Part shown: piece by piece, positions 36,238 to 47,667 of the stretch
How positions within the stretch are numbered: position 1 is the first letter of the stretch
Layout: every line of letters starts with the position of its first letter
NCBI RefSeq assembly: GCF_003545715.1
Contig: NZ_QVNU01000002.1
Span: 124,001-188,000 of the forward strand
Source of the DNA: Taibaiella koreensis
GTDB taxonomy: Bacteria; Bacteroidota; Bacteroidia; Chitinophagales; Chitinophagaceae
Direction of reading: 5' to 3'
DNA: 64,000 bases
Notes under the pieces: model-generated
Seen by the model: only the letters and a program-made list of their open reading frames with translations
Databases searched by the model: none
Told to the model about the DNA's origin: nothing
Position numbers and translations under genes: made by a program

Positions 36238-36383
36238 AGTTTTTGCTTTTAAAGATCAAAAATAAAAGGTAATATGAAGATAATATATTCTCAATGAATA
36301 AATTATTCTTAAAAAATAAATGACCTGCTCTTTCCTTTCCCCGGACCTAAAGGTAAAAAAATATATCTTTTTTAGCGTTTATA

Positions 36384-36410
36384 GGGGTAAGAGAATCGAA
36401 AGTTGTCTTA
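36384..36410 (+). promoter_or_regulatory. ECF-type promoter element A, before the sigma gene
   Basis: GGGGTA (36384-36389), 13 bp, TTGTCTTA (36403-36410). The same element with the same 13-bp gap occurs at 40450 and 44374. A start at 36417 would be only six bases past it, so the start codon is downstream. A standard TATCTTTG -7 element at 36440-36447 may be a second promoter. Confidence 0.65.
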
Positions 36411-36464
36411 GAATAAATGCAAACATTAACGCAAGCGGCTATCTTTGAGGGGCAAAGCGCTCAA

Positions 36465-37046
36465 ATGTACATGGACAGCAATAGTACCGGAATTTCAGAG
36501 ACGGAGTTTGAACAGGTTTTTAAATCTCATTTTAAGGCCCTACATGCCTATGCCTGCACCATACTCCAGGAAGAAGCTATGGCAGAGGAGATCGTGCAGC
36601 AGGTCTTTTTTAAGCTATGGGAAAAAAGAGACCAGGTCAATATACAGCAATCGCTCAATGCCTACCTCTATCGCTCGGTGTATAACGAATGCCTGAATTA
36701 CCTGAAACATAAGAAAGTGAGAAAAGCACATCAATCGCATACCCTGTATACTGCCGGCACAGCTTCGGACCAGGTATCGCGTAAGGTGATCGCCCGCGAG
36801 CTGGAAGAAAAGATCGCCGATGCGTTGAACCAACTGCCCGAACAATGCCGCACGATATTCCAGATGAGCCGTTTCGAGGAGCTGAAATACCGGGAGATCG
36901 CCGACAAGCTGAACCTTTCGGTAAAGACCGTGGAAAACCAGATGGGAAAAGCGCTTAAGATCATGCGCATGCAGCTGGTAGAATACCTGCCGGTGCTGCT
37001 GCCGCTTATTACCGGCATTACGATAATGATCAAAAACATAATATAA
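36465..37046 (+). CDS. ECF sigma-70 factor of a FecI-like system
   Basis: 193 residues from ATG 36465; ATG 36471 is also possible, and 36417 would lie at the transcript start. Region 2 is 'FEQVFKSHFKALHAYACTILQEEAMAEEIVQQVFFKLWEKRDQ' (about residues 12-55), and region 4 is 'FQMSRFEELKYREIADKLNLSVKTVENQMGKALKIMR', the LuxR-like helix-turn-helix of Bacteroidota FecI-type sigmas. It is followed after about 60 bp by a FecR anti-sigma gene. The bipartite element upstream recurs before two downstream operons, which suggests autoregulation (inference). Confidence 0.9.
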   Translation: MYMDSNSTGISETEFEQVFKSHFKALHAYACTILQEEAMAEEIVQQVFFKLWEKRDQVNIQQSLNAYLYRSVYNECLNYLKHKKVRKAHQSHTLYTAGTASDQVSRKVIARELEEKIADALNQLPEQCRTIFQMSRFEELKYREIADKLNLSVKTVENQMGKALKIMRMQLVEYLPVLLPLITGITIMIKNII

Positions 37047-37105
37047 TTGCCTTATAAGCGTGATAAGGATCAAAAATAACTGTGAAGGCTGATAACAATA
37101 ATAAC

Positions 37106-38104
37106 ATGGATGAGCTATTAGTAAAATACCTTTTGGGTGAAGCTTCAGCCGATGAAGAGCGGATGGTGCTGGAGTGGACTCATGCAAAAGAGGAACATAG
37201 ACGATACTACGATCATTTTAAAGTGATATGGGAACAGAGCAGGGCGCTTGCCGCTACAAGCACCGTCGACGAGGAACAGGCCTGGGATCGCTTCAAAGCT
37301 AAAAGGGACGGTCTGCAGCACAGCGACGATCATTTAGTGGATAGCGACGACAATAATAGCGACGACAATACCGTTGTCTTTATACCAGCTAAGAAACGCC
37401 GCTGGACCAGTATGGCTGCCGCAATAGCCCTGCTGATCACCGGTAGCCTGGTCGCCTATTATTTCATGGCGCTCAACCGGCAGGATATCGTGCTGGCCTC
37501 GGCCGGTGAAGTGCTCACAGACACCCTGCCCGATGGCTCGGTGGTAACGCTTAATAAAAACTCGACATTAGCCTATGCAAAGGATTTCAACAAGCACACA
37601 AGGGCTGTAAAGCTGACCGGCGAGGCATTCTTTAATGTGGCGCCCAATAAGCAAAAGCCTTTCGAGATCAGTGTAGACGAAGTGAAAGTACAGGTGGTAG
37701 GCACCTCGTTCAATGTGAAAAATGGCGCCGAACAAACGGAAGTGATCGTGGAAACCGGCATCGTCAATGTAGGTGTTTCGGATAAAGCGGTAAGAGTGCT
37801 GCCGCAACAAAGAGTAGTCGTACATAAGAAGCAAAAAGCGCTGGACGTGCAAAAGAGCCAGGACGACCTGTACAACTACTACCGGACCAAGGAATTCGTT
37901 TGTTACAAAACGCCCTTATATAAGCTTGCCGAAGCGCTCAATATCGCTTATGATGTAAAGATCGTGATCCCTGAAGAACGGGTGCGCAACCTTACCTTGA
38001 GCACTACTTATAAAAACATGCCGCTGAACGGTATATTGAACCTGGTGACTAAACAGTTTAACCTAAGCATCGAACAAAAGGACGGTGAGATCATTCTGAA
38101 ATAG
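37106..38104 (+). CDS. FecR family anti-sigma factor
   Basis: 332 residues from ATG 37106; GTG 37082 would add eight. A cytosolic N-terminal zinc-finger-like helical domain binds the sigma ('MDELLVKYLLGEASADEERMVLEW'). A low-complexity acidic stretch with SDDNN repeats precedes the single membrane helix (about 104-124, 'MAAAIALLITGSLVAYYFMAL'). Then come the periplasmic FecR beta domain ('LPDGSVVTLNKNSTLAYAKDF') and a C-terminal DUF4974/STN-like domain ('YKNMPLNGILNLVTKQFNLSI'). It relays an outer-membrane signal from the STN protein downstream to the sigma factor (family knowledge). Confidence 0.92.
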   Translation: MDELLVKYLLGEASADEERMVLEWTHAKEEHRRYYDHFKVIWEQSRALAATSTVDEEQAWDRFKAKRDGLQHSDDHLVDSDDNNSDDNTVVFIPAKKRRWTSMAAAIALLITGSLVAYYFMALNRQDIVLASAGEVLTDTLPDGSVVTLNKNSTLAYAKDFNKHTRAVKLTGEAFFNVAPNKQKPFEISVDEVKVQVVGTSFNVKNGAEQTEVIVETGIVNVGVSDKAVRVLPQQRVVVHKKQKALDVQKSQDDLYNYYRTKEFVCYKTPLYKLAEALNIAYDVKIVIPEERVRNLTLSTTYKNMPLNGILNLVTKQFNLSIEQKDGEIILK

Positions 38105-38135
38105 AACAAGATTTTTGTGACGAGAGAGAAGGATT

Positions 38136-38165
38136 GGCACGGCGTAAGCTGTGCCGGTCTTTTTG
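38136..38165 (+). terminator. Intrinsic terminator after the fecR gene
   Basis: An 8-bp stem GGCACGGC / GCTGTGCC (one G-T pair), then GGTCTTTTT. It separates the sigma/FecR genes from the STN protein gene. Confidence 0.7.
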
Positions 38166-38240
38166 TTGTTATACGGCGATTGTACCGGTCCTTTGCAGCG
38201 ATGTCCCGCCCGACGGGAAAATAATAATAGCTTTGCGTCC

Positions 38241-40034
38241 ATGAACCAACCCTACAATGCGTTATTACTCTTTTTGTTTCTTACTGTCCTTTCTGCAACG
38301 GCTTACAGCCAGAATATGTTGCAGCGCAGGATCAGCCTGCAGATGCGGGACAGGCCTGTGGCCGAGGTGCTGAAGCAGGCTGAGAAGCAAGCAGGTTTCT
38401 ACTTTTCCTATAGCAACGATATGGTGAAAAGCGACAGTATCGTCAGCGTATCGATGAAGAACAGACCTGTAGCAAACCTGCTTGAGAGCCTTTTCGGCAA
38501 CCGGTATCAATACATCGAAAGCAACGACCATGTGATCATACAACCGGCCCTTTCTTACCAGTACTGGTATGTGAGCGGCATGGTCGTAGATAAAAATACA
38601 GGTGAGCCCGTAAGCTATGCCACCGTCTATGAAAGACAGCAGCTGATCTCCACCATGACAGATGAGCACGGCCGCTTCCGGCTGCAGCTGAAAGAGCACA
38701 AGCCTGTCGCGAGCATCAATGTCAGCAAGGTTTCTTATGCCGATACAGTGGTATTGCTTTCCGGCGATCAGCCACAGGATATCCAGATCGGGATCCAGCA
38801 GATCCAGTATACCCTGGATTCGGTTGTCATTTCCGGCGTGGAAAAGAACTGGCTGGCCGGACTGATGCTTTCGTCCAAGCAGACGATGAATAGCCTTAAT
38901 CTCAACAATTTTTTTTCCAAGCAACCTTTCCAGTTTTCGCTCACCCCAGGCCTGGGCTCGCATGGACGCATGGGTGCACAAATGGTCAATAAGTTTTCGT
39001 TCAATGTGCTCGGGGGCTATACCGCCGGCGTCAATGGTTTCGAGATCGGCACCTTGTTCAATATCGTCAAGCACGACATGAAATATGTCGAGATCGCCGG
39101 CCTGTTTAATATTGTCGGCGGCAGGGCCTCCGGCGTCCAGGTAGCAGGCCTCTACAATTCGGTGCTGGACAGCCTTAGCGGCATCCAGGTAGCAGGCCTT
39201 ACCAATATCGTTGCCCATGATGCCAAAGGCATCCAGGTGGCCGGTATCTATAATCACGCGCTGAATACCAAAGGTATCCAGATCTCCGGCATCGGCAACA
39301 TTACCGTAAAGCACGCCAAGGGTGTGATGGTGGGCGGTATTTTCAATAGCACACGGAATATGGATGGCGTACAGATAGCCGGCATTGCCAATGTGAATGT
39401 CAAGCGGAGTTCCGGGGTGCAAATTGCGCCCATAGCCAATGTTACGGCCCGTGAAATGAAGGGCATCCAGATATCGGCTATGGTCAACCTGGCGCAACGG
39501 CTTAAGGGCACGCAGATCGGCCTTGTCAATATTGCCGATACTTCGGAGGGCTACAGCATCGGCTTCTTCAACTTCATTCTCCATGGCTACCATAAGCTAT
39601 CGATCTCTACCAGTGAGCTGCAGCATGTTACGCTAGCTTATAAGTCGGGCAACCGGAAGCTATACAGCATTCTTATCGGCGGCTTCCAGCTGGATGATAA
39701 GCAGCAGGCTTACTCTTTCGGCTATGGCCTGGGCAGCGATATGCCTTTGGGTAAAAAAGGATTTTTCTTCAATCCCGAGCTCACGAATCAATATATTTAC
39801 GCCGGCAACGAAGAGCAGCAAAACCTGCTGGTCAGGCTACAGCTGAATGTTAAATACCGCATCGGTAAGCTTTGCTACATTTATGCCGGCCCGGCCTTTT
39901 CAATATTGTATGCCAAGCAAGTCACTGTGCCCGAGGGTTACAGGTCAGACTTTATCAATGGCTACCCCTCTGTATCCTTTGGCAAAGAAGTGAAAGGATG
40001 GCTGGGCTGGAACATAGGCGTGGATCTTTTTTAG
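38241..40034 (+). CDS. STN and carboxypeptidase-like domain protein with LA_2272-type surface repeats
   Basis: 597 residues from ATG 38241, where a signal peptide begins (MNQPYNALLLFLF, cleavage near AYSQ); a frame from 38151 has no signal. Domain order: STN signalling domain (about 25-100, 'LQMRDRPVAEVLKQAEKQAGF'), carboxypeptidase regulatory-like beta-sandwich (about 110-195), about a dozen 20-residue repeats of the type 'GIQVAGLTNI' (about 260-465), and a C-terminal region of beta-strands. It has no TonB plug. It is the likely outer-membrane input of the FecI/FecR pair just upstream, in place of a TonB-dependent transporter. No GGGGTA element is seen before it, and a terminator separates it from fecR. 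Confidence 0.85.
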   Translation: MNQPYNALLLFLFLTVLSATAYSQNMLQRRISLQMRDRPVAEVLKQAEKQAGFYFSYSNDMVKSDSIVSVSMKNRPVANLLESLFGNRYQYIESNDHVIIQPALSYQYWYVSGMVVDKNTGEPVSYATVYERQQLISTMTDEHGRFRLQLKEHKPVASINVSKVSYADTVVLLSGDQPQDIQIGIQQIQYTLDSVVISGVEKNWLAGLMLSSKQTMNSLNLNNFFSKQPFQFSLTPGLGSHGRMGAQMVNKFSFNVLGGYTAGVNGFEIGTLFNIVKHDMKYVEIAGLFNIVGGRASGVQVAGLYNSVLDSLSGIQVAGLTNIVAHDAKGIQVAGIYNHALNTKGIQISGIGNITVKHAKGVMVGGIFNSTRNMDGVQIAGIANVNVKRSSGVQIAPIANVTAREMKGIQISAMVNLAQRLKGTQIGLVNIADTSEGYSIGFFNFILHGYHKLSISTSELQHVTLAYKSGNRKLYSILIGGFQLDDKQQAYSFGYGLGSDMPLGKKGFFFNPELTNQYIYAGNEEQQNLLVRLQLNVKYRIGKLCYIYAGPAFSILYAKQVTVPEGYRSDFINGYPSVSFGKEVKGWLGWNIGVDLF

Positions 40035-40449
40035 CACGGCCGGCATGCTGGCTCAGGTATGCGCCAGCCCCAGCTTGATGGCCCCTCCCACTCTCTCTTG
40101 GTAAGCAATAGCTGCGGATGACGCTGCACATTATCCATTAACGATGATTGCAGCACCAGTTGCTATTTTGAGCACATAGCTTTGACGCCTGCCGTGAATA
40201 TAGAGTGTTATAGTACGCATTATCCAGGTTGGTAAGCGCTATGATGCCAATACAGGGGAAATCCCTGGAAATAAGCCTGGCCAGGGTTTCCCATGAATGA
40301 CCGGGCAAATGAAAAGACCACAATTTTATTAAAGCAGAAAAGCTTATCAAGCGCGGGCAATCGCAACCAATAAGTCAGACGACTACGGGAGGCTACCTTG
40401 TCCATAGCGGCCTCTTACCTTTGGCAGCGGCTTTTAGAAAATTGCCGTA
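40035..40449. other. 415-bp gap with no clear gene
   Basis: A minus-strand frame of 70 codons (40138-40350) has a stretch reminiscent of a response-regulator receiver ('RDFPCIGIIALTNLDNAYYN'), but no intact domain or start. It may be a decayed fragment. Nothing else is recognisable. Confidence 0.3.
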
Positions 40450-40476
40450 GGGGTATTTTTCCCTATCGGTGTCCTA
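40450..40476 (+). promoter_or_regulatory. ECF-type promoter element B, before the repeat OM protein
   Basis: GGGGTA (40450-40455), 13 bp, GTGTCCTA (40469-40476). The upstream GTG start candidate at 40469 lies inside it, so ATG 40493 is the start. Confidence 0.65.
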
Positions 40477-40492
40477 TTCGAAAGCACCTTAT

Positions 40493-41632
40493 ATGACACG
40501 CAATTTCTTCAGCAGCTTAATTCTATGGATCCTCTGCAGTTTCCTGGTATTCTTTTGCTTTATCATCGCTGCATCTGCCCAGGGGACCAAAGCCCGTCCT
40601 GCCCACATCGGCTTTACGTATCCCTTAAGCACCAATGGCTCGGAAGCGCCGCAGCTAACCAATAACTTCTCTATGCATGTACTGGCGGGCGTTTCCTGGC
40701 AGGAAAACGCTTTTTGCCTCTCAGGGATCAGCAGCATCGTGCGGCATGAAGCCCATGGCGTTTTGATCTCCGGCATCCTTAACCGGGTACAGCACAAAGC
40801 CGACGGCGTACAAATAGCCGGCGTGCTTAACCAGATCAAAGGAGATGCGAAAGGCGCACAGCTGGCCGGTATCGCCAATATAAGCGGCAGCTCCGACGGT
40901 GCGCAGATAGCGGGTCTCACCAATATTACCAAAGAAGCGAATGGCTTGCAACTGGCGGGCTTTGCCAATAAAGCGGCCAACAGCGATGCGCAGGTGGCCG
41001 GCTTCGCCAACATCGCCAGGAATAGCAATGCCGCTCAGGTGGCAGGCTTTATCAACGTAGCCAAAGACGCGCATACGCAAGTGGCCGGCTTCATTAATGT
41101 GGCCAAAAAAGTAAGTGGCGTGCAGGTCGCCGGCTTCATCAATATTGCCGAGGAAAGCAATTATCCCATAGGGATCATCAACATTATTAAAAACGGGGAA
41201 AAGCAGATTGGTGTATCTGTCGACGAGACCAGCAGCACCTTGATCAACTTCCGCTCGGGTGGTAAGGTTCTGTATGGTATTGTAGGCGCCGGCTACAACT
41301 TCAAAGACGACGTAGCACGTTATGTACTGGAAGTAGGCCTGGGCGCGCATATAGCGATCAGCAAACCTTTCCGGATCAACCTAGAGACGGTGACCATGGC
41401 GATGAGCGACCTGCAGCACGACGTCTATATGAAATCTGCCATAAGGGTGCTGCCTGCCTATAAGATAGCTAACCGCCTCGAGTTCTTCGCCGGTCCCAGC
41501 TTCAATCACCTGAGCTACGAAAGAGGACAAACCGATATCCGCGACGATCATTATTTGTGGAAGAATAGGGGTAGAAACCATGTCAATGGTCTTTACTTCG
41601 GCGGTGTCGTTGGTGTACAGATCAACCTGTAA
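40493..41632 (+). CDS. LA_2272-type surface repeat outer-membrane protein
   Basis: 379 residues from ATG 40493, with a signal peptide ending near AASAQ. About ten repeats of roughly 20 residues ('AQLAGIANI', 'VQVAGFINIAE', about 75-235) match those of the STN protein upstream. Beta-strands follow in the C-terminal third ('YVLEVGLGAHIAI', 'LEFFAGPSFNHLSY'). Lacking STN, it may be the barrel or ligand-binding partner of that protein. Function unknown. The GGGGTA element 16 bp upstream links it to the ECF sigma. Confidence 0.8.
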   Translation: MTRNFFSSLILWILCSFLVFFCFIIAASAQGTKARPAHIGFTYPLSTNGSEAPQLTNNFSMHVLAGVSWQENAFCLSGISSIVRHEAHGVLISGILNRVQHKADGVQIAGVLNQIKGDAKGAQLAGIANISGSSDGAQIAGLTNITKEANGLQLAGFANKAANSDAQVAGFANIARNSNAAQVAGFINVAKDAHTQVAGFINVAKKVSGVQVAGFINIAEESNYPIGIINIIKNGEKQIGVSVDETSSTLINFRSGGKVLYGIVGAGYNFKDDVARYVLEVGLGAHIAISKPFRINLETVTMAMSDLQHDVYMKSAIRVLPAYKIANRLEFFAGPSFNHLSYERGQTDIRDDHYLWKNRGRNHVNGLYFGGVVGVQINL

Positions 41633-41760
41633 TTACCGGCGTTCCCTTATCAATTTATTAACCTAATGATTCCCTGCCGTTCGTCGTCTATATACAATGA
41701 AGTGGCAGAATACTAGAAAAAATAAGGTTCATCAGCACAGTCATTTAACCATTTCAGCAT

Positions 41761-42477
41761 ATGAAAAAGCTAAGTATTCTATTCATTTTCAGTTTATTAA
41801 TACTCGCTCTCATGCCTTCATGCCGCAAGGTGGATGGCCGGGGGCCTGTGGTTTCGGAGACCCGGAATATTTCCGGCTTCAGCGAGATCAAATCAGATTT
41901 TACGGGCGATGTGTATGTCACACAGGGAAGCATATCCAACATACGCATCGAGGCACAACAAAATATTATTGACGTACTGGAAACAGTACTTAATGACGGA
42001 ATCCTGACCATAAGGGTGAAAAGCAACACAGTTGTACGCCCCGATTCCAGGATAAGGGTATATGTTACGGCGCCGAATATTACGGGCTTACGCGTAAGCG
42101 GTTCGGGCAGCATGATGGTACAGGAGACATTAAATACTTCGAACCTGTATGTTAGGGTAAATGGTTCGGGAGACGTCAATATTACCAAATTGACGACAGG
42201 TAGCCTGGATGCGAATATCAGCGGCAGCGGAGAGATCAACGTTTTCAACGGCACCGCAGATGAAGAGTATATTGATATTGCGGGCAGCGGTTCGGCCGAT
42301 TGCTCAGGGCTGGCAGCCTACAGGTCCGATGTAAAGATATCCGGATCGGGCGACGCCAGGGTTTACGCCCTGGACCAGCTGAAAGTGCGGATAACCGGCA
42401 GCGGCAACGTATACTATAGAGGACAACCGTCGATCGATGTCGGTATCACCGGATCGGGAAAACTCCGGCCGATGTAG
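41761..42477 (+). CDS. Head GIN domain (DUF2807) lipoprotein
   Basis: 238 residues with a lipobox 'LALMPSCRK' (Cys21). The mature part is a single beta-helix-like DUF2807/head GIN domain with repeated 'VSGSGS', 'VNGSGDV', 'ISGSGEI', 'IAGSGSA', 'ISGSGDA', 'ITGSGNV', one per coil. Such proteins are common in Bacteroidota and sit on the periplasmic face or outer surface, but no function is established. No GGGGTA element precedes it, and it follows the repeat protein by 128 bp. Confidence 0.9.
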   Translation: MKKLSILFIFSLLILALMPSCRKVDGRGPVVSETRNISGFSEIKSDFTGDVYVTQGSISNIRIEAQQNIIDVLETVLNDGILTIRVKSNTVVRPDSRIRVYVTAPNITGLRVSGSGSMMVQETLNTSNLYVRVNGSGDVNITKLTTGSLDANISGSGEINVFNGTADEEYIDIAGSGSADCSGLAAYRSDVKISGSGDARVYALDQLKVRITGSGNVYYRGQPSIDVGITGSGKLRPM

Positions 42478-42600
42478 CTGAGACTAAATGTTAAAAAAAC
42501 CGAAGGATATGCCCAGCGCTGAAAATAATTCATCAGACAGGCCGTTAATGGGTACGACAGACAGGTAGCGCGGGGCATATTTTTCCTTAATTATTTCTTT

Positions 42601-42963
42601 ATGCAACAATGTTGGTTCCTTACTGAATTGATCTATCGTATCCACGATAAAAATTGTCCCACTGTACATCAATTTGACAAACAAATGCGGCTGATCAAAG
42701 CCGATTCTGCACGTGAGGCTTACCAGGCTGCCCTGGTAATGGCATCACACGAGCTGGATAAGCGAAATACCTCTATTGAACAGGAGCTTACCTGGGAATT
42801 TGCCGGTATCGGTATCCTGCAAACGATCGACAAACCGGAAGAGAGTGTTGATAATATGGAATTGCATTATACGATCGATACTGCCGGCGCCGCGAAGGAA
42901 TACATGCGCTCCCTGCGCACACGCCACGCCAGCCTGCAGATGCAGATCGCGCTTACCGCCTGA
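42601..42963 (+). CDS. DUF4288 domain protein
   Basis: 120 residues, no signal peptide. The DUF4288 core covers most of the protein: 'WFLTELIYRI', 'QFDKQMRLIKADSAREAYQAALVMA' and 'WEFAGIGILQTI'. Function of the family is unknown. It is a single gene with a very strong terminator at 43019. Confidence 0.85.
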   Translation: MQQCWFLTELIYRIHDKNCPTVHQFDKQMRLIKADSAREAYQAALVMASHELDKRNTSIEQELTWEFAGIGILQTIDKPEESVDNMELHYTIDTAGAAKEYMRSLRTRHASLQMQIALTA

Positions 42964-43018
42964 AAAAAGCTTGTTTTCCGTGCAGCCTGAGCCCCTCGCG
43001 GGAGACATTTCTTTCCGG

Positions 43019-43046
43019 AGCTGTCCATAAGATGGACAGCTTTTTT
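43019..43046 (+). terminator. Intrinsic terminator of the DUF4288 gene
   Basis: A perfect 10-bp stem AGCTGTCCAT / ATGGACAGCT around AAG, followed by a T run. Confidence 0.9.
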
Positions 43047-43173
43047 CGTTGTCTGAAAGCCGGAGCCCCCACCTGCGAGGTCGGGCTTAACGATCATTTT
43101 CATTTTATTTCCTAAGTTCGCGCCTGGTATTACGGCAATGATCTCTTTCGGCGCCGGCTCATTTCCATTGCTT

Positions 43174-44190
43174 ATGCTGCAAACGCTCACTCACGTTTCC
43201 CTGCGTCCCCGCAATACCTTCGGCATGGAGGCTTTCGCAGAATATTATTCCGAACTGAACCGGGAAGAAGAATTGCGCTCGCTGAAGGATAACCCGGCCT
43301 ATGGCGCCGGCCTTTTCGTCCTGGGTGGCGGCAGCAATATCCTGCTTACCGGCGATGTGCCGCACTGGGTGCTGCACAACAAGATAGGAGGCATCGATCT
43401 GCTCCAAGAAGACGACGAATATGTGTGGCTCTGGGCCGGCGCGGGAGCTGTCTGGCATTCGTTTGTGTTGTATTGTGTGGAACGGGGTTATGCGGGCGTC
43501 GAAAACCTTTCGTTGATACCCGGGACAGTCGGTGCGGCGCCTATCCAGAATATCGGCGCTTATGGTGTGGAAGCAAAGGATGTTATAGAAGAAGTCCGTT
43601 TTTTTGACCTGGAGCAACAAACCTTCCGAAACTTTACGCAGGCGGACTGCCGGTTCGGCTACAGGGACAGTATTTTCAAAGGAACCCTTAAAGGCCGGGC
43701 CGTGATCACTTCCGTCGTATTCAGGCTAAATAAAATACCCCGGTTCCATACCAGCTATGGCAACATACGCCAGGAGCTGGATGTTATGGGCGTTACAGAA
43801 CTATCGATAAAACATATATCCGACGCTGTGATCCGGATTCGTTCCGCCAAGCTACCCGACCCGGAAAAGATCGGCAACGCCGGCAGCTTCTTTAAGAATC
43901 CGGAAGTGCCCAATGCCCGGTACGAGCAGCTGAAAGCGCAATATCCTACCATCCCCGGCTTTCCCCTGGAAGGGGATCATACCAAGATACCAGCCGGCTG
44001 GATGATCGAGCAATGCGGCTGGAAAGGCTATCGCGAGGACGATTATGGCGTACATAAAGACCAGGCGCTCGTGCTGGTAAATTACGGCAACGCCAAAGGC
44101 GCCGATATTGCCACACTTTCCGTGAAAATAATGGACTCTGTAAAACATCGCTTCGGCATTCAACTGGAAAGAGAAGTACAAATAATCTGA
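43174..44190 (+). CDS. murB: UDP-N-acetylmuramate dehydrogenase
   Basis: 338 residues from ATG 43174 (MLQTLTHVSLRPRNTFGME), close to the 342 of E. coli MurB; ATG 43138 adds twelve atypical residues. FAD enzyme that reduces UDP-GlcNAc-enolpyruvate to UDP-MurNAc for peptidoglycan. 'FVLGGGSNILL', 'NLSLIPGTVGAAPIQNIGAYGVE' and 'GNAGSFFKNPEV' (with the catalytic Ser) are present, and it is type I. It stands alone, away from other mur genes. Confidence 0.94.
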   Translation: MLQTLTHVSLRPRNTFGMEAFAEYYSELNREEELRSLKDNPAYGAGLFVLGGGSNILLTGDVPHWVLHNKIGGIDLLQEDDEYVWLWAGAGAVWHSFVLYCVERGYAGVENLSLIPGTVGAAPIQNIGAYGVEAKDVIEEVRFFDLEQQTFRNFTQADCRFGYRDSIFKGTLKGRAVITSVVFRLNKIPRFHTSYGNIRQELDVMGVTELSIKHISDAVIRIRSAKLPDPEKIGNAGSFFKNPEVPNARYEQLKAQYPTIPGFPLEGDHTKIPAGWMIEQCGWKGYREDDYGVHKDQALVLVNYGNAKGADIATLSVKIMDSVKHRFGIQLEREVQII

Positions 44191-44373
44191 TCCACATAAT
44201 AATAATGACCGCGCAACGTTCATTCCCGCGGAATACTGCCGGACCGATCGTTGCGCGTATCAAGCATTTAATAATCTTGCTATCAGAGATCAAGGGGATA
44301 TTGTAACGAGCCGCCGTATGATGCGCAGCCAACAGTGTTCCGGTAATCCGGTTTAACCAAAAAAATATCCGTA

Positions 44374-44400
44374 GGGGTATCTCTATTTACCGTTGTCTTA
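44374..44400 (+). promoter_or_regulatory. ECF-type promoter element C, before the TonB receptor
   Basis: GGGGTA (44374-44379), 13 bp, TTGTCTTA (44393-44400), with 43 bp to the start codon. The longer shared string with element B is CCGTAGGGGTAT. Confidence 0.65.
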
Positions 44401-44443: not shown

Positions 44444-46768
44444 ATGAAAAACTATTGCTTCATTCTGCTCCTTACCTGCAGCGCTTTCGTCGCAGCGGCA
44501 CAAAAGAAAGTTACCGTAGGCGGCATGGTTAAGTCTAAATCCAACGGCGAGACCGTGATTGGCGCATCCGTAAAGGTGGATTCCGTAGCCGGCACCCTGA
44601 GCAACGAGTATGGATTTTACTCGCTTACGCTGCCCGAGGGCGAGCACACGATCGAGATCACATCGGTAGGTATGCAGCCCCAATACTTCGACGTCGACCT
44701 TCACCGGGACACGACAATGAACCTCACGCTCGATGACGAAAGCCACGACCTGAAGGAAGTGACCATTACGGAGAGCACCGGCGGACGCAGCCTCAGCAGC
44801 GCGCAAACCAGCGTCGAAAAGCTCTCTATGAAAGAGATTTCCAATATCCCGGTGCTGTTTGGCGAAAGGGACGTGCTGAAAGCCATACAGCTGCTTCCCG
44901 GCATTAAATCGGCCGGCGATGGCAACAGCGGCATGTTTGTACGCGGCGGCGCTGCCGATCAGAACCTGATCCTGTTGGACGAGGCGCCCGTATACAATGC
45001 CTCCCATCTGCTCGGCTTCTTCTCCACCTTCAATTCCGATGCCGTTAAAGACATTACGGTATACAAGGGTGGTATGCCGGCACAGTACGGAGGCCGTTTG
45101 TCCTCGGTGCTCGACATTAAAATGAATGACGGCAATAACCAGGACTTTAATGTAAGCGGCGGCGTGGGCCTTATCTCCGCCAAGCTGAACGTGGAAGGTC
45201 CCATCCAGAAAGACAAATCCTCTTTTCTCATTACCGGCCGCCGCACCTATGCCGATGTATTCCTTAAAGCGTCCGATAAGTATAAGGACAATTCGCTTTA
45301 CTTCTACGACCTTAATGCCAAAGTAAATTATATATTGGGTGATAAAGACCGGCTCTACCTTTCGGGCTATTTCGGCAAAGACAAGCTGGGGGCCAGCCTG
45401 GGCGACGGCCAGGGCTTCGGTATGGATTGGGGCAATGCGACCGCTACCCTAAGGTGGAACCATATCTTCAACAATAAGCTGTTCTCCAATACTTCCTTTA
45501 TCTTCAGCAACTATAACTATAAGATATCGATCAAGACCGGCGCTTACGACTTCAGGATATTTTCCCAGATCCAGGATTTCAACTTCAAGGAAGAGCTGCA
45601 ATGGTATGCCGGCGACCGCAACACCTTGCGCATAGGTATCAACAGCATTTACCACACAATACGTCCTGGAGAAGTAACTTCCGGCGATGAAAGCACCATT
45701 GGCTCAACAGCGCTCCAGAAGCGTTATTCCTGGGAGAATGCTGCTTATATAACCAATAACTGGAAAGCGCTCGACAACCTGAACATTACCTATGGTGTGC
45801 GCCTGTCGGCTTTCACTATACTGGGCAAGGGCGACTTCTACGATTTGGCGCCCGACGGCAGCGTAGCAGACACCACGCACTACAACAGCGGCCAGGTGGT
45901 AAAAACATATATGAACCTGGAGCCCCGCGTCGCAGCCAGCTGGCAGTTTAACCGGAACTCCTCTGTTAAGGCTTCTTATGTAAGGAATGCACAGAACCTG
46001 CACCTTATCTCCAATTCCACATCTGCAAGTCCTACCGACAAATGGCTGGCCAGCACCAATATCATCAAGCCCGAATTATCTGATCAGGTATCACTGGGCT
46101 ATTACCGCAACATGAGCGGCAATAAATATGAGCTTACTGTGGAAGCTTATTACAAGACCATGCAAAACCAGGTGGATTACCGCGACGGTGCCAATGTTTA
46201 CTCCTCCAACAATGCCATCGAATCGGAACTGTTGTTCGGCAAGGGCAGGTCGTATGGCCTGGAAGTCCTGCTGAAGAAGAAAGTGGGCCGCCTCTCCGGC
46301 TGGGTCAGCTATACCTTGTCCAAAACAGAACGTCAGATCGACGGTATCAACAACGGCGATTGGTACAACGCCCGCCAGGACAGGACGCACGACATCGCTA
46401 TCGTAGCCACTTACCAATTGAATAAGAAATGGACTCTGAGCGCCAACTGGGTATACTACACCGGCGACGCCATTACTTTCCCGGCCGGCAAGTACCAGGT
46501 AGATGGACAAACTGTATACTACTACACCCAGCGTAACGCTTACCGCATGCCCGATTATCACCGCCTCGACCTGGGCGCTACCTGCAAACTGAAAGAAACG
46601 AAAAAATGGAGTCATGAGCTTGCTTTCAGCCTGTACAATGCCTATGGCCGTGAGAATGCTTACACGATCTATTTCCGTGACAACAAAGACGACGCCAGCA
46701 AGACCGAAGCCGTTAAGGTAGCCCTGTTCAAATTCATCCCTTCTATTTCCTATAACTTCAAATTCTGA
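44444..46768 (+). CDS. TonB-dependent outer-membrane receptor
   Basis: 774 residues. After the signal peptide (MKNYCFILLL, cleavage near AAAQ) comes a carboxypeptidase regulatory-like domain (about 25-105, 'VIGASVKVDSVAGTLSNEYGFYSLTLPEG'). A plug follows ('ERDVLKAIQLLPGIKSAGDGNSGMFVRGGAADQNLILLDEAPVYN', about 142-187), then the 22-strand barrel to the C-terminus, ending in Phe. There is no STN domain, so it does not signal directly to FecR. It takes up an unknown substrate with TonB energy. It is followed after eight bases by a DUF4249 lipoprotein, so the two form an operon. Confidence 0.93.
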   Translation: MKNYCFILLLTCSAFVAAAQKKVTVGGMVKSKSNGETVIGASVKVDSVAGTLSNEYGFYSLTLPEGEHTIEITSVGMQPQYFDVDLHRDTTMNLTLDDESHDLKEVTITESTGGRSLSSAQTSVEKLSMKEISNIPVLFGERDVLKAIQLLPGIKSAGDGNSGMFVRGGAADQNLILLDEAPVYNASHLLGFFSTFNSDAVKDITVYKGGMPAQYGGRLSSVLDIKMNDGNNQDFNVSGGVGLISAKLNVEGPIQKDKSSFLITGRRTYADVFLKASDKYKDNSLYFYDLNAKVNYILGDKDRLYLSGYFGKDKLGASLGDGQGFGMDWGNATATLRWNHIFNNKLFSNTSFIFSNYNYKISIKTGAYDFRIFSQIQDFNFKEELQWYAGDRNTLRIGINSIYHTIRPGEVTSGDESTIGSTALQKRYSWENAAYITNNWKALDNLNITYGVRLSAFTILGKGDFYDLAPDGSVADTTHYNSGQVVKTYMNLEPRVAASWQFNRNSSVKASYVRNAQNLHLISNSTSASPTDKWLASTNIIKPELSDQVSLGYYRNMSGNKYELTVEAYYKTMQNQVDYRDGANVYSSNNAIESELLFGKGRSYGLEVLLKKKVGRLSGWVSYTLSKTERQIDGINNGDWYNARQDRTHDIAIVATYQLNKKWTLSANWVYYTGDAITFPAGKYQVDGQTVYYYTQRNAYRMPDYHRLDLGATCKLKETKKWSHELAFSLYNAYGRENAYTIYFRDNKDDASKTEAVKVALFKFIPSISYNFKF

Positions 46769-46776
46769 TCCCGATC

Positions 46777-47601
46777 ATGTTCTCCTATAAAAAGAAAAAC
46801 AACAGCGCATTAAGCCTTCTTGCAGCCGGGCTCCTGCTGACCGGGCTAAGCTCCTGCGAAAAAGTAATTGATGTAAAGCTTAACGAAGCCGACAAAAAGA
46901 TCGTAGTGGACGCTGTACTTACCGACCAGGAAGGCGGCTGTATGGTCAAGCTCTCGAAGACCAAGAAGTTTGAAGAAGACAACAATTTTGCCGGCCTTGC
47001 GGGCGCTTCTGTAAGCATCAAAGATGAAACCGGCGCCGTAAGCCAGCTTACCGAAACCCAACCGGGCATCTACAAGCACAACACCCTTAAAGGGGCGCCG
47101 GGCAAACGTTATGAGCTTACCGTAGTTGTCGAGGGACAAACGATCACGGGCAGCTCTACTATGCCACAACCGGTACACCTGGATAGCGTCTATATCAAAA
47201 AGCAGAAATTCTTTGATGAAGATGAGATCTTCGCCAATATTATGTTTGTCGATCCGGGTGGCATTAAGAACTTCTATCGTGTAGTACAGTTTATCAATGG
47301 CGTTAAATCCAACTTTAATTTCCTCATGGACGATGACCTGAGCGATGGCAAGGATTTCAATTCCACACTCTACTTCCTTCCCGATGACGACAAGAAGAAG
47401 ATCAAGCCCGGCGATGCGGTGACCATCGAAATGCAGGGTATCGATGCCGCCGTATACAAATATTGGTTCAGCCTGGACCAAAGCGCCAGCGGCTCTTCTT
47501 CTTCCGCGGCGCCGTCCAACCCCGTAAGCAACCTGTCGGGCGGTGTGTTGGGCTACTTCAGCGCACAAGTCGTGCAACGGCAAACGGTTATTGCGCCTTA
47601 A
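46777..47601 (+). CDS. DUF4249 family lipoprotein
   Basis: 274 residues with a lipobox 'LTGLSSCEK' (Cys about residue 27). DUF4249 features: 'LSSCEKVIDVKLNEADKKIVVDAVLTDQEGGCMVKLSKTK', then beta-rich domains with a carboxypeptidase-like 'ASVSIKDETG'. These lipoproteins are regularly encoded beside TonB-dependent receptors in Bacteroidota and probably bind the substrate or a cofactor. It overlaps functionally with SusD-like proteins but is unrelated in sequence. The ribosome site lies in the eight-base gap. Confidence 0.9.
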   Translation: MFSYKKKNNSALSLLAAGLLLTGLSSCEKVIDVKLNEADKKIVVDAVLTDQEGGCMVKLSKTKKFEEDNNFAGLAGASVSIKDETGAVSQLTETQPGIYKHNTLKGAPGKRYELTVVVEGQTITGSSTMPQPVHLDSVYIKKQKFFDEDEIFANIMFVDPGGIKNFYRVVQFINGVKSNFNFLMDDDLSDGKDFNSTLYFLPDDDKKKIKPGDAVTIEMQGIDAAVYKYWFSLDQSASGSSSSAAPSNPVSNLSGGVLGYFSAQVVQRQTVIAP

Positions 47602-47634
47602 TGAATTTGTTTTTGTTTGTTTGTTATAGAAATG

Positions 47635-47667
47635 CCGCATCGCTTCTGCGATGCGGTTCTTTTTTTT
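47635..47667 (+). terminator. Intrinsic terminator of the TonB receptor operon
   Basis: A perfect 9-bp stem CCGCATCGC / GCGATGCGG around TTCT, then TTCTTTTTTTT. Confidence 0.92.

Follow-up and report, generated by a model that had tools for sequence, protein, structure and literature searches.

To our knowledge, few promoters of extracytoplasmic function (ECF) sigma factors of Bacteroidota are known. Bacteroidota genomes can have many of these factors, and Bacteroides thetaiotaomicron carries 50 (PMC12596196). In Escherichia coli, fecIR is reported to be transcribed by sigma-70, and FecI drives fecA (PMC9249621). In the PUMA3 system of Pseudomonas aeruginosa (VreA-VreR-VreI), the signalling receptor VreA is described as small and as lacking a beta-barrel (PMC2729926). 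The toxin BcpT induces a sigma gene of Phocaeicola vulgatus, likely through envelope stress, and the anti-sigma factor of this pair is itself predicted to extend to a barrel in the outer membrane (PMC9308784), as is Dma1 of the Bacteroides Das1/Dma1 pair (PMC12596196). For SM6, a promoter motif of Flavobacterium psychrophilum, a CGT box is reported, and its targets belong to type IX secretion (PMC9723704). The DNA analyzed here, called the window, is a 64,000-nt stretch of Taibaiella koreensis (GCF_003545715.1, contig NZ_QVNU01000002.1, positions 124,001 to 188,000, forward strand). Three copies of the bipartite element GGGGTA-N13-KTGTCYTA stand in it before an ECF sigma gene and genes of outer-membrane proteins, and the element was assessed as the promoter motif of that sigma factor.

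The locus shares with E. coli Fec an ECF sigma, a FecR-type regulator, and a presumed outer-membrane partner, in which the signalling domain at the N-terminus is putative; the sigma (36465) and fecR (37082) genes are neighbours. Unlike in E. coli, the sigma gene bears the target motif, and no plug domain was detected in the linked outer-membrane partner (hereafter the sensor). PUMA3 is alike in that its signalling receptor departs from the normal TonB-dependent type, but unlike VreA the sensor has, by prediction, a region rich in beta-strands that carries LA_2272-type repeats. The P. vulgatus and Das1/Dma1 systems are likewise Bacteroidota ECF systems linking the outer membrane to an anti-sigma factor, whereas here anti-sigma factor and outer-membrane protein are separate genes. 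SM6 is also a Bacteroidota ECF-type promoter motif with a sigma/anti-sigma pair among its targets and is set apart by its CGT box and targets, the -35 boxes lying outside this comparison. No plug domain was found in the linked partner, and the system therefore falls short of full membership of the TonB-receptor type; judged by its predicted parts, the circuit is a variant of FecI/FecR cell-surface signalling that we regard as new. No description of the motif or cassette was found among the titles and abstract starts listed by searches of the open PubMed Central literature, and an earlier listing is possible.

The three sites are probably (at a probability of roughly 0.8) promoters of the adjacent ECF sigma, which would activate its own gene and genes of outer-membrane proteins. 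An earlier note, made from the letters of the window, had reported three copies of the element, each close before a start codon, and no further one between genes. This was borne out: the window has three exact matches, each on the + strand (36384-36410, 40450-40476, 44374-44400), whereas 100 dinucleotide-preserving shuffles gave 0. The genome-wide scan with exact spacing that the note had proposed (5,940,849 bases, 24 contigs) found only the same three sites, all within 8 kb, and 0 exact matches to the reversed pattern. The distance from box to start codon is 54 nt for sigma (ATG 36465), 16 nt for the repeat protein, REP (ATG 40493), and 43 nt for the TonB receptor (ATG 44444). The longest sigma open reading frame begins at ATG 36417, only 6 nt past the box, so that 36465 is more likely to be the start if the message has a leader. 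Behind the sites are an ECF sigma/fecR pair, a gene for an LA_2272-like repeat protein, and a TonB-receptor/DUF4249 operon. The motif itself was as described, except that the conserved element is longer, TAGGGGTA-N13-(K)TGTC(H)TA. With up to one mismatch, the genome had 13 sites (10 beyond the exact ones) against 9 for the reversed pattern, and with up to two, 77 against 118. The one-mismatch count is about background, which leaves the exact matches, with the places where they stand, as the signal; weaker matches in the single genome, taken alone, carry no information, and widening the regulon by mismatches within the genome was dropped.

The gene block, running ECF sigma, FecR, sensor, REP, DUF2807, DUF4288, murB (taken as a bystander), TonB receptor, and DUF4249, kept its order in three congeners, barring DUF2807, which was undetected in G003; in G002, ~4.5 kb separates the sensor gene from REP. 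Both G001 and G002 have the motif at sigma, REP, and the TonB receptor with 0-2 mismatches. The closest named relatives, among the best 80 of 325 loci from the sensor alignment, were Taibaiella helva (91% identity in the sensor protein) and T. lutea (61%).

The family footprint was made from 44 orthologous loci: the window, the three congeners, and 40 family loci from 99 non-congener genomes with a sensor homologue (E ≤ 1e-60), for the most part the highest-ranked ones. Sites with N13 and up to two mismatches were accepted from 300 bp before to 60 bp after the projected gene start. The motif stood upstream of sigma in 38/42 loci, REP in 28/32, DUF2807 in 11/30, and a TonB-receptor-like gene in 9/17, and upstream of fecR and the sensor gene in 0/42 and 0/44. 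All 86 sites were distinct, with the consensus (C)(R)TAGGGGTA-N13-(T)TGTC(W)TA. Spacers of N9-N12 and N14-N17 gave 0-6 loci, the antisense orientation at most 2, and the reversed pattern at N13 none. A conserved -35/-10 pair with fixed spacing before a sigma gene and its presumed targets is what is expected of an ECF-dependent promoter. Sigma was not detected in two loci (L095, L121), and four sigma loci had no site (L091, L101, L118, L124).

In the family as a whole, the exact pattern TRGGGGTA-N13-KTGTCHTA occurred at 77 places in 52/394 genomes (reversed control, 10 places). Its carriers followed the sensor gene, being 39 of the 103 genomes with it and 13 of the 291 without (Fisher p = 1.6e-15); the reversed control was unlinked to that gene (3/103 and 7/291). 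Forty stretches around motif places were examined, some at the core locus and some elsewhere. The likely next gene was a sigma homologue in eight (47-63% identity; a ninth, at 24%, was another ECF sigma), a homologue of the window's TonB receptor in five (71, 58, 42, 43, and 43%), a REP homologue in seven, and DUF2807 in three; other next genes encoded an outer-membrane barrel protein (OMP_b-brl_2) and small secreted-looking proteins. Two of the seven REP sites, and those before DUF2807, belong or probably belong to the core locus. The other five REP sites (40-45% identity, one on a short contig) and four receptor sites lay away from it, and for the fifth receptor site (G258) the core locus was not found at E ≤ 1e-60. 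Since these five and four sites lie outside the core locus, the motif also precedes homologues of the predicted targets that are unlinked to sigma.

The same pattern was found in the class Bacteroidia at 58 places in 35/395 genomes, the window genome included (reversed control, 11). Sigma, FecR, and sensor homologues were together in 19 of the 40 class-level stretches examined, and 13 of these 19 loci had a site (0-1 mismatch) before sigma. In L203, a TonB receptor (54%) and DUF4249 (32%) were also behind a site. The best 80 of 325 loci from the sensor alignment were used as named loci; several come from the same genomes as above and are thus not independent. Upstream of the sensor gene, they had sigma in 77/80 and FecR in 79/80. 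The best match to the longer pattern had 0-2 mismatches in 57 of the 76 usable sigma upstream regions; the reversed pattern never had fewer than 3, and composition shuffles averaged 5.6. Before REP, the longer pattern matched with 0-2 mismatches in 33/40. A long, specific motif at the sigma gene and outer-membrane targets across many genera may make such regulons predictable from sequence.

In Dyadobacter and Emticicia (n = 11), the -35 box of the sigma gene reads YTAGGGTA with unchanged spacing, and this variant also stands before REP in L239, L271, and L278. Residues were compared in 142 distinct sigma sequences, with up to two mismatches allowed in TRGGGGTA sites. At position 152, sigmas with a TRGGGGTA site (n = 102) had Ser in 100 cases, with one Ala and one gap, and those with a YTAGGGTA site had Pro in 11/11; sigmas with neither site (n = 29) had Ser in 28 and a gap in one. 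By residue alignment to SigW and SigE, we take position 152 to be the first residue of the sigma4 recognition helix. The contacts used for this placement are those given for SigW and SigE in PMC6713349. Position 152 (Ser/Pro) is a candidate specificity residue for TAGGGGTA versus TTAGGGTA.

Taken together, footprinting, fixed spacing, orientation, unlinked targets, and the co-change with the recognition helix support the earlier proposal that the motif is the target of the sigma at 36465, and site 1 in most sigma loci, at the same spacing, supports the proposed autoregulation. Several observations weigh against this reading. No exact match was present in 64 of the 103 genomes with the sensor gene, partly since the scan allows zero mismatches. 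In G003, the motif was at sigma and REP only, site 3 having no match at up to two mismatches. Among the 19 class-level loci, the site lay between sigma and fecR in four and only at other genes in two. More than two mismatches were needed in 19 of the 76 named sigma upstream regions, 11 of them from Dyadobacter/Emticicia, and three Mucilaginibacter loci (L288, L293, L295) had none near sigma, with a one-mismatch site ~0.8 kb upstream. The YTAGGGTA variant was not found before REP in L265, L270, and L275. The 11 Pro sigmas form a single clade (support 0.998), so the co-change counts as one event, and the Dyadobacter/Emticicia sigmas differ at other residues too. The STN match of the sensor (22.4 bits) is below the Pfam cut-off of 28.4.

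The element could be an ECF-type promoter read by another ECF sigma, or by several overlapping ones, since the genome has seven FecR genes, ECF sigmas being counted here by FecR partner only, and overlapping ECF regulons are discussed for F. psychrophilum (PMC9723704). This is unlikely: no comparable upstream site (5-7 mismatches) was seen at the sigma genes beside the six other FecR genes, and the motif accompanies orthologues of the adjacent sigma across genera and changes with their recognition helix. Its length and strong conservation would also suit a site bound by an activator or repressor of the classical kind. Such a site is the least probable of the explanations considered, very improbable indeed, as the element is non-palindromic, with two boxes, a rigid spacer, and a gene-directed orientation, 16-54 nt before the window start codons. 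In addition, TGTC in the -10 box resembles ECF promoters, and among the conserved window-block genes compared there was no regulator gene besides the sigma/FecR pair.

Recognition by the adjacent sigma would still allow site 1 to be a weak or relic promoter, with a TAnnTTTG box driving a sigma gene that is not truly autoregulated. In 31/38 loci, this box followed the sigma promoter within 90 nt, against a mean of 0.9 and a maximum of 4 in composition shuffles, and most copies lay 26-31 nt past the -10 box. None of the 48 target promoters was followed by it (REP 0/28, DUF2807 0/11, TonB receptor 0/9). TAnnTTTG is the housekeeping -7 consensus reported for F. psychrophilum (PMC9723704). No clear -33 element for it was seen by eye, and because many sigma leaders can be read as coding, (M/L)..EA.IF, with Ile-Phe in an N-terminal extension, the box is only probably a housekeeping -7 box, part of its conservation possibly being coding. 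With site 1 kept at 38/42 loci and its spacing unchanged, a sigma gene outside its own regulon is improbable, about as much so as a reader other than the adjacent sigma or slightly more.

In the circuit that we infer, RNA polymerase with the ECF sigma would read the -35 box TAGGGGTA and the -10 box TGTCYTA at the three sites (Table 1). FecR would keep sigma inactive at the inner membrane, and the sensor presumably signals to FecR through its STN-like domain. Released sigma would raise its own gene together with fecR, a positive feedback with a built-in brake, and would also induce the TonB receptor/DUF4249 operon and the REP unit. A housekeeping promoter a short way past site 1, with the -7 box TATCTTTG, would probably provide sigma and FecR at a basal level. 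The sensor of this genus probably stands outside the feedback, with a terminator before its gene and a housekeeping promoter of its own.

Table 1. Coordinates of the sites, genes, and putative control elements at the window locus.
Feature	Position	Strand	Remarks
Promoter site 1, TAGGGGTA-N13-TTGTCTTA	36382..36410	+	Before sigma gene; proposed autoregulatory ECF promoter; congeners 3/3, 1-2 mismatches
TATCTTTG, probable housekeeping sigma-A -7 box (TAnnTTTG)	36440..36447	+	Between site 1 and sigma start
ECF sigma factor, 193 aa, TIGR02985 subfamily	36465..37046	+	NCBIfam 183.6 bits, cut-off 126.4
FecR-type anti-sigma	37082..38104	+	Start GTG 37082 or ATG 37106; FecR and FecR_C above Pfam cut-offs
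Intrinsic-terminator-like hairpin with T-run, 3' of fecR	38127..38164	+	Fold z -6.15
TAGCTTTG, probable housekeeping -7 box for sensor gene	38228..38235	+	Same letters in 3/4 genomes of the genus
Presumed outer-membrane transducer (sensor)	38241..40034	+	Sub-threshold STN-like, CarboxypepD_reg_2, LA_2272-type repeats, C-terminal beta-strand region
Promoter site 2, TAGGGGTA-N13-GTGTCCTA	40448..40476	+	Congeners 3/3 at 0-1 mismatch
Repeat protein (REP)	40493..41632	+	Homologue of C-terminal part of transducer; no Pfam domain found
DUF2807 (head GIN) protein	41761..42477	+	Possibly co-transcribed with REP; own site in some other genomes
DUF4288 protein	42601..42963	+	Possible last gene of REP unit
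Promoter site 3, TAGGGGTA-N13-TTGTCTTA	44372..44400	+	Exact in 2/3 congeners, absent in G003
TonB-dependent receptor	44444..46768	+	CarboxypepD_reg_2, plug, and barrel domains
DUF4249 protein	46777..47601	+	Probably same operon; 8 bp past receptor

In Taibaiella, a putative terminator, seen as a hairpin, separates fecR from the sensor gene; all three congeners also have hairpins there (by eye). The median gap between fecR and the sensor gene in 34 named loci was 15.5 bp, which makes the genes look like one operon in most of them. Further terminator-like hairpins were at 43017-43043 after DUF4288 and at 47634-47657 after DUF4249; the region had 19 terminator-like patterns against 12.1 expected, each weak alone. 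The FecR protein scored 69.1 bits for FecR (cut-off 24) and 29.6 for FecR_C (cut-off 24.4).

The sensor, scanned with Pfam from GTG 38151, had no Plug or TonB barrel match (E ≤ 0.001), and the receptor at 44444 has plug and barrel, yet no STN match. The LA_2272 repeat domain (NCBIfam) scored 32.7 bits in the sensor (cut-off 25). REP had no LA_2272 match of its own in NCBIfam and was 30-34% identical to the C-terminal part of the sensor. A single-sequence structure prediction of the sensor, with a predicted local distance difference test (pLDDT) score of 40, was not used. Prediction from a 58-sequence alignment (mean pLDDT 83.7, predicted template modelling score 0.54) gave N-terminal helices and strands, followed mainly by strands up to the end ...GVDLF. 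Foldseek with this model found no match at E ≤ 0.001. The best sub-threshold matches were carboxypeptidase D transthyretin-like domains, an outer-membrane porin, and secretin N0; PilQ N0 had E 0.005 and the PupB signalling domain E 0.098 (rank 28), with probability 1.00. Apart from the chains of a SusC homologue and a TonB-linked receptor, matched mainly via the carboxypeptidase-like domain, the sensor sequence profile found none. The sensor is presumed to be a plugless outer-membrane transducer with a signalling-like domain, which raises the question of which signal such systems sense. REP resembles the outer-membrane part of the transducer minus the signalling domain and is the most constant target, and could therefore be a decoy. 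A circuit widespread in the class, in which the plugless, repeat-bearing transducer senses the state of the outer membrane instead of an imported substrate and REP switches the loop off as a decoy, is offered as a tentative and rather doubtful extension.

A second cassette (L296; G000:C20:51000-61000), on the reverse strand at ~52-59 kb, repeats the architecture of the window, with sigma (43% identity), FecR (34%), a sensor-like protein (23-27%), a TonB receptor (34%), and DUF4249. Its sensor-like protein has CarboxypepD_reg and no STN match. Before its sigma and its receptor stands GGTAGGGTA-N14-CGTC, which has the same geometry as the window motif (GGGGTA-N14-TGTC). Three exact places of it were found in the genome, two of them being these; with up to one mismatch there were 7, against 10 for the reversed control. 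As this count is below the control, only the exact pair at the cassette genes is telling. The sigma gene of this cassette is among the six mentioned above without a window-type site. The paralogous cassette and the Dyadobacter/Emticicia variant may be natural cases of promoter re-specification.

Class-level loci with the motif between sigma and fecR include L195, L197, L201, L204, L206, and L207; this placement suggests that fecR may be inducible without sigma. Past the REP -10 box, an inverted repeat that could form a hairpin (e.g., GTTGT...ACAAC, by eye) was seen in L091 (~8540) and L092 (~8359), both sensor-oriented. After mismatches had been dropped as a criterion within the genome, one-mismatch sites were considered only when also kept in a congener, and two weak candidates were left. 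One such site precedes an lpxA-like gene (Hexapep, Acetyltransf_11) with an identical 27-bp core in two congeners (L005 and L057, 1501-1527) and was not counted, because the surroundings are likewise very similar. The other precedes an OMP_b-brl_2 outer-membrane barrel gene in the window genome and G002 (L013 and L054, 1501-1527), a weak candidate for a possible fourth member of the regulon. A gene of the OMP_b-brl_2 family also stands behind an exact site in L142. At L162 993 (G001), a MarR-family gene is preceded by an exact TGGGGGTA-type site, within the genus seen as exact in that genome only.

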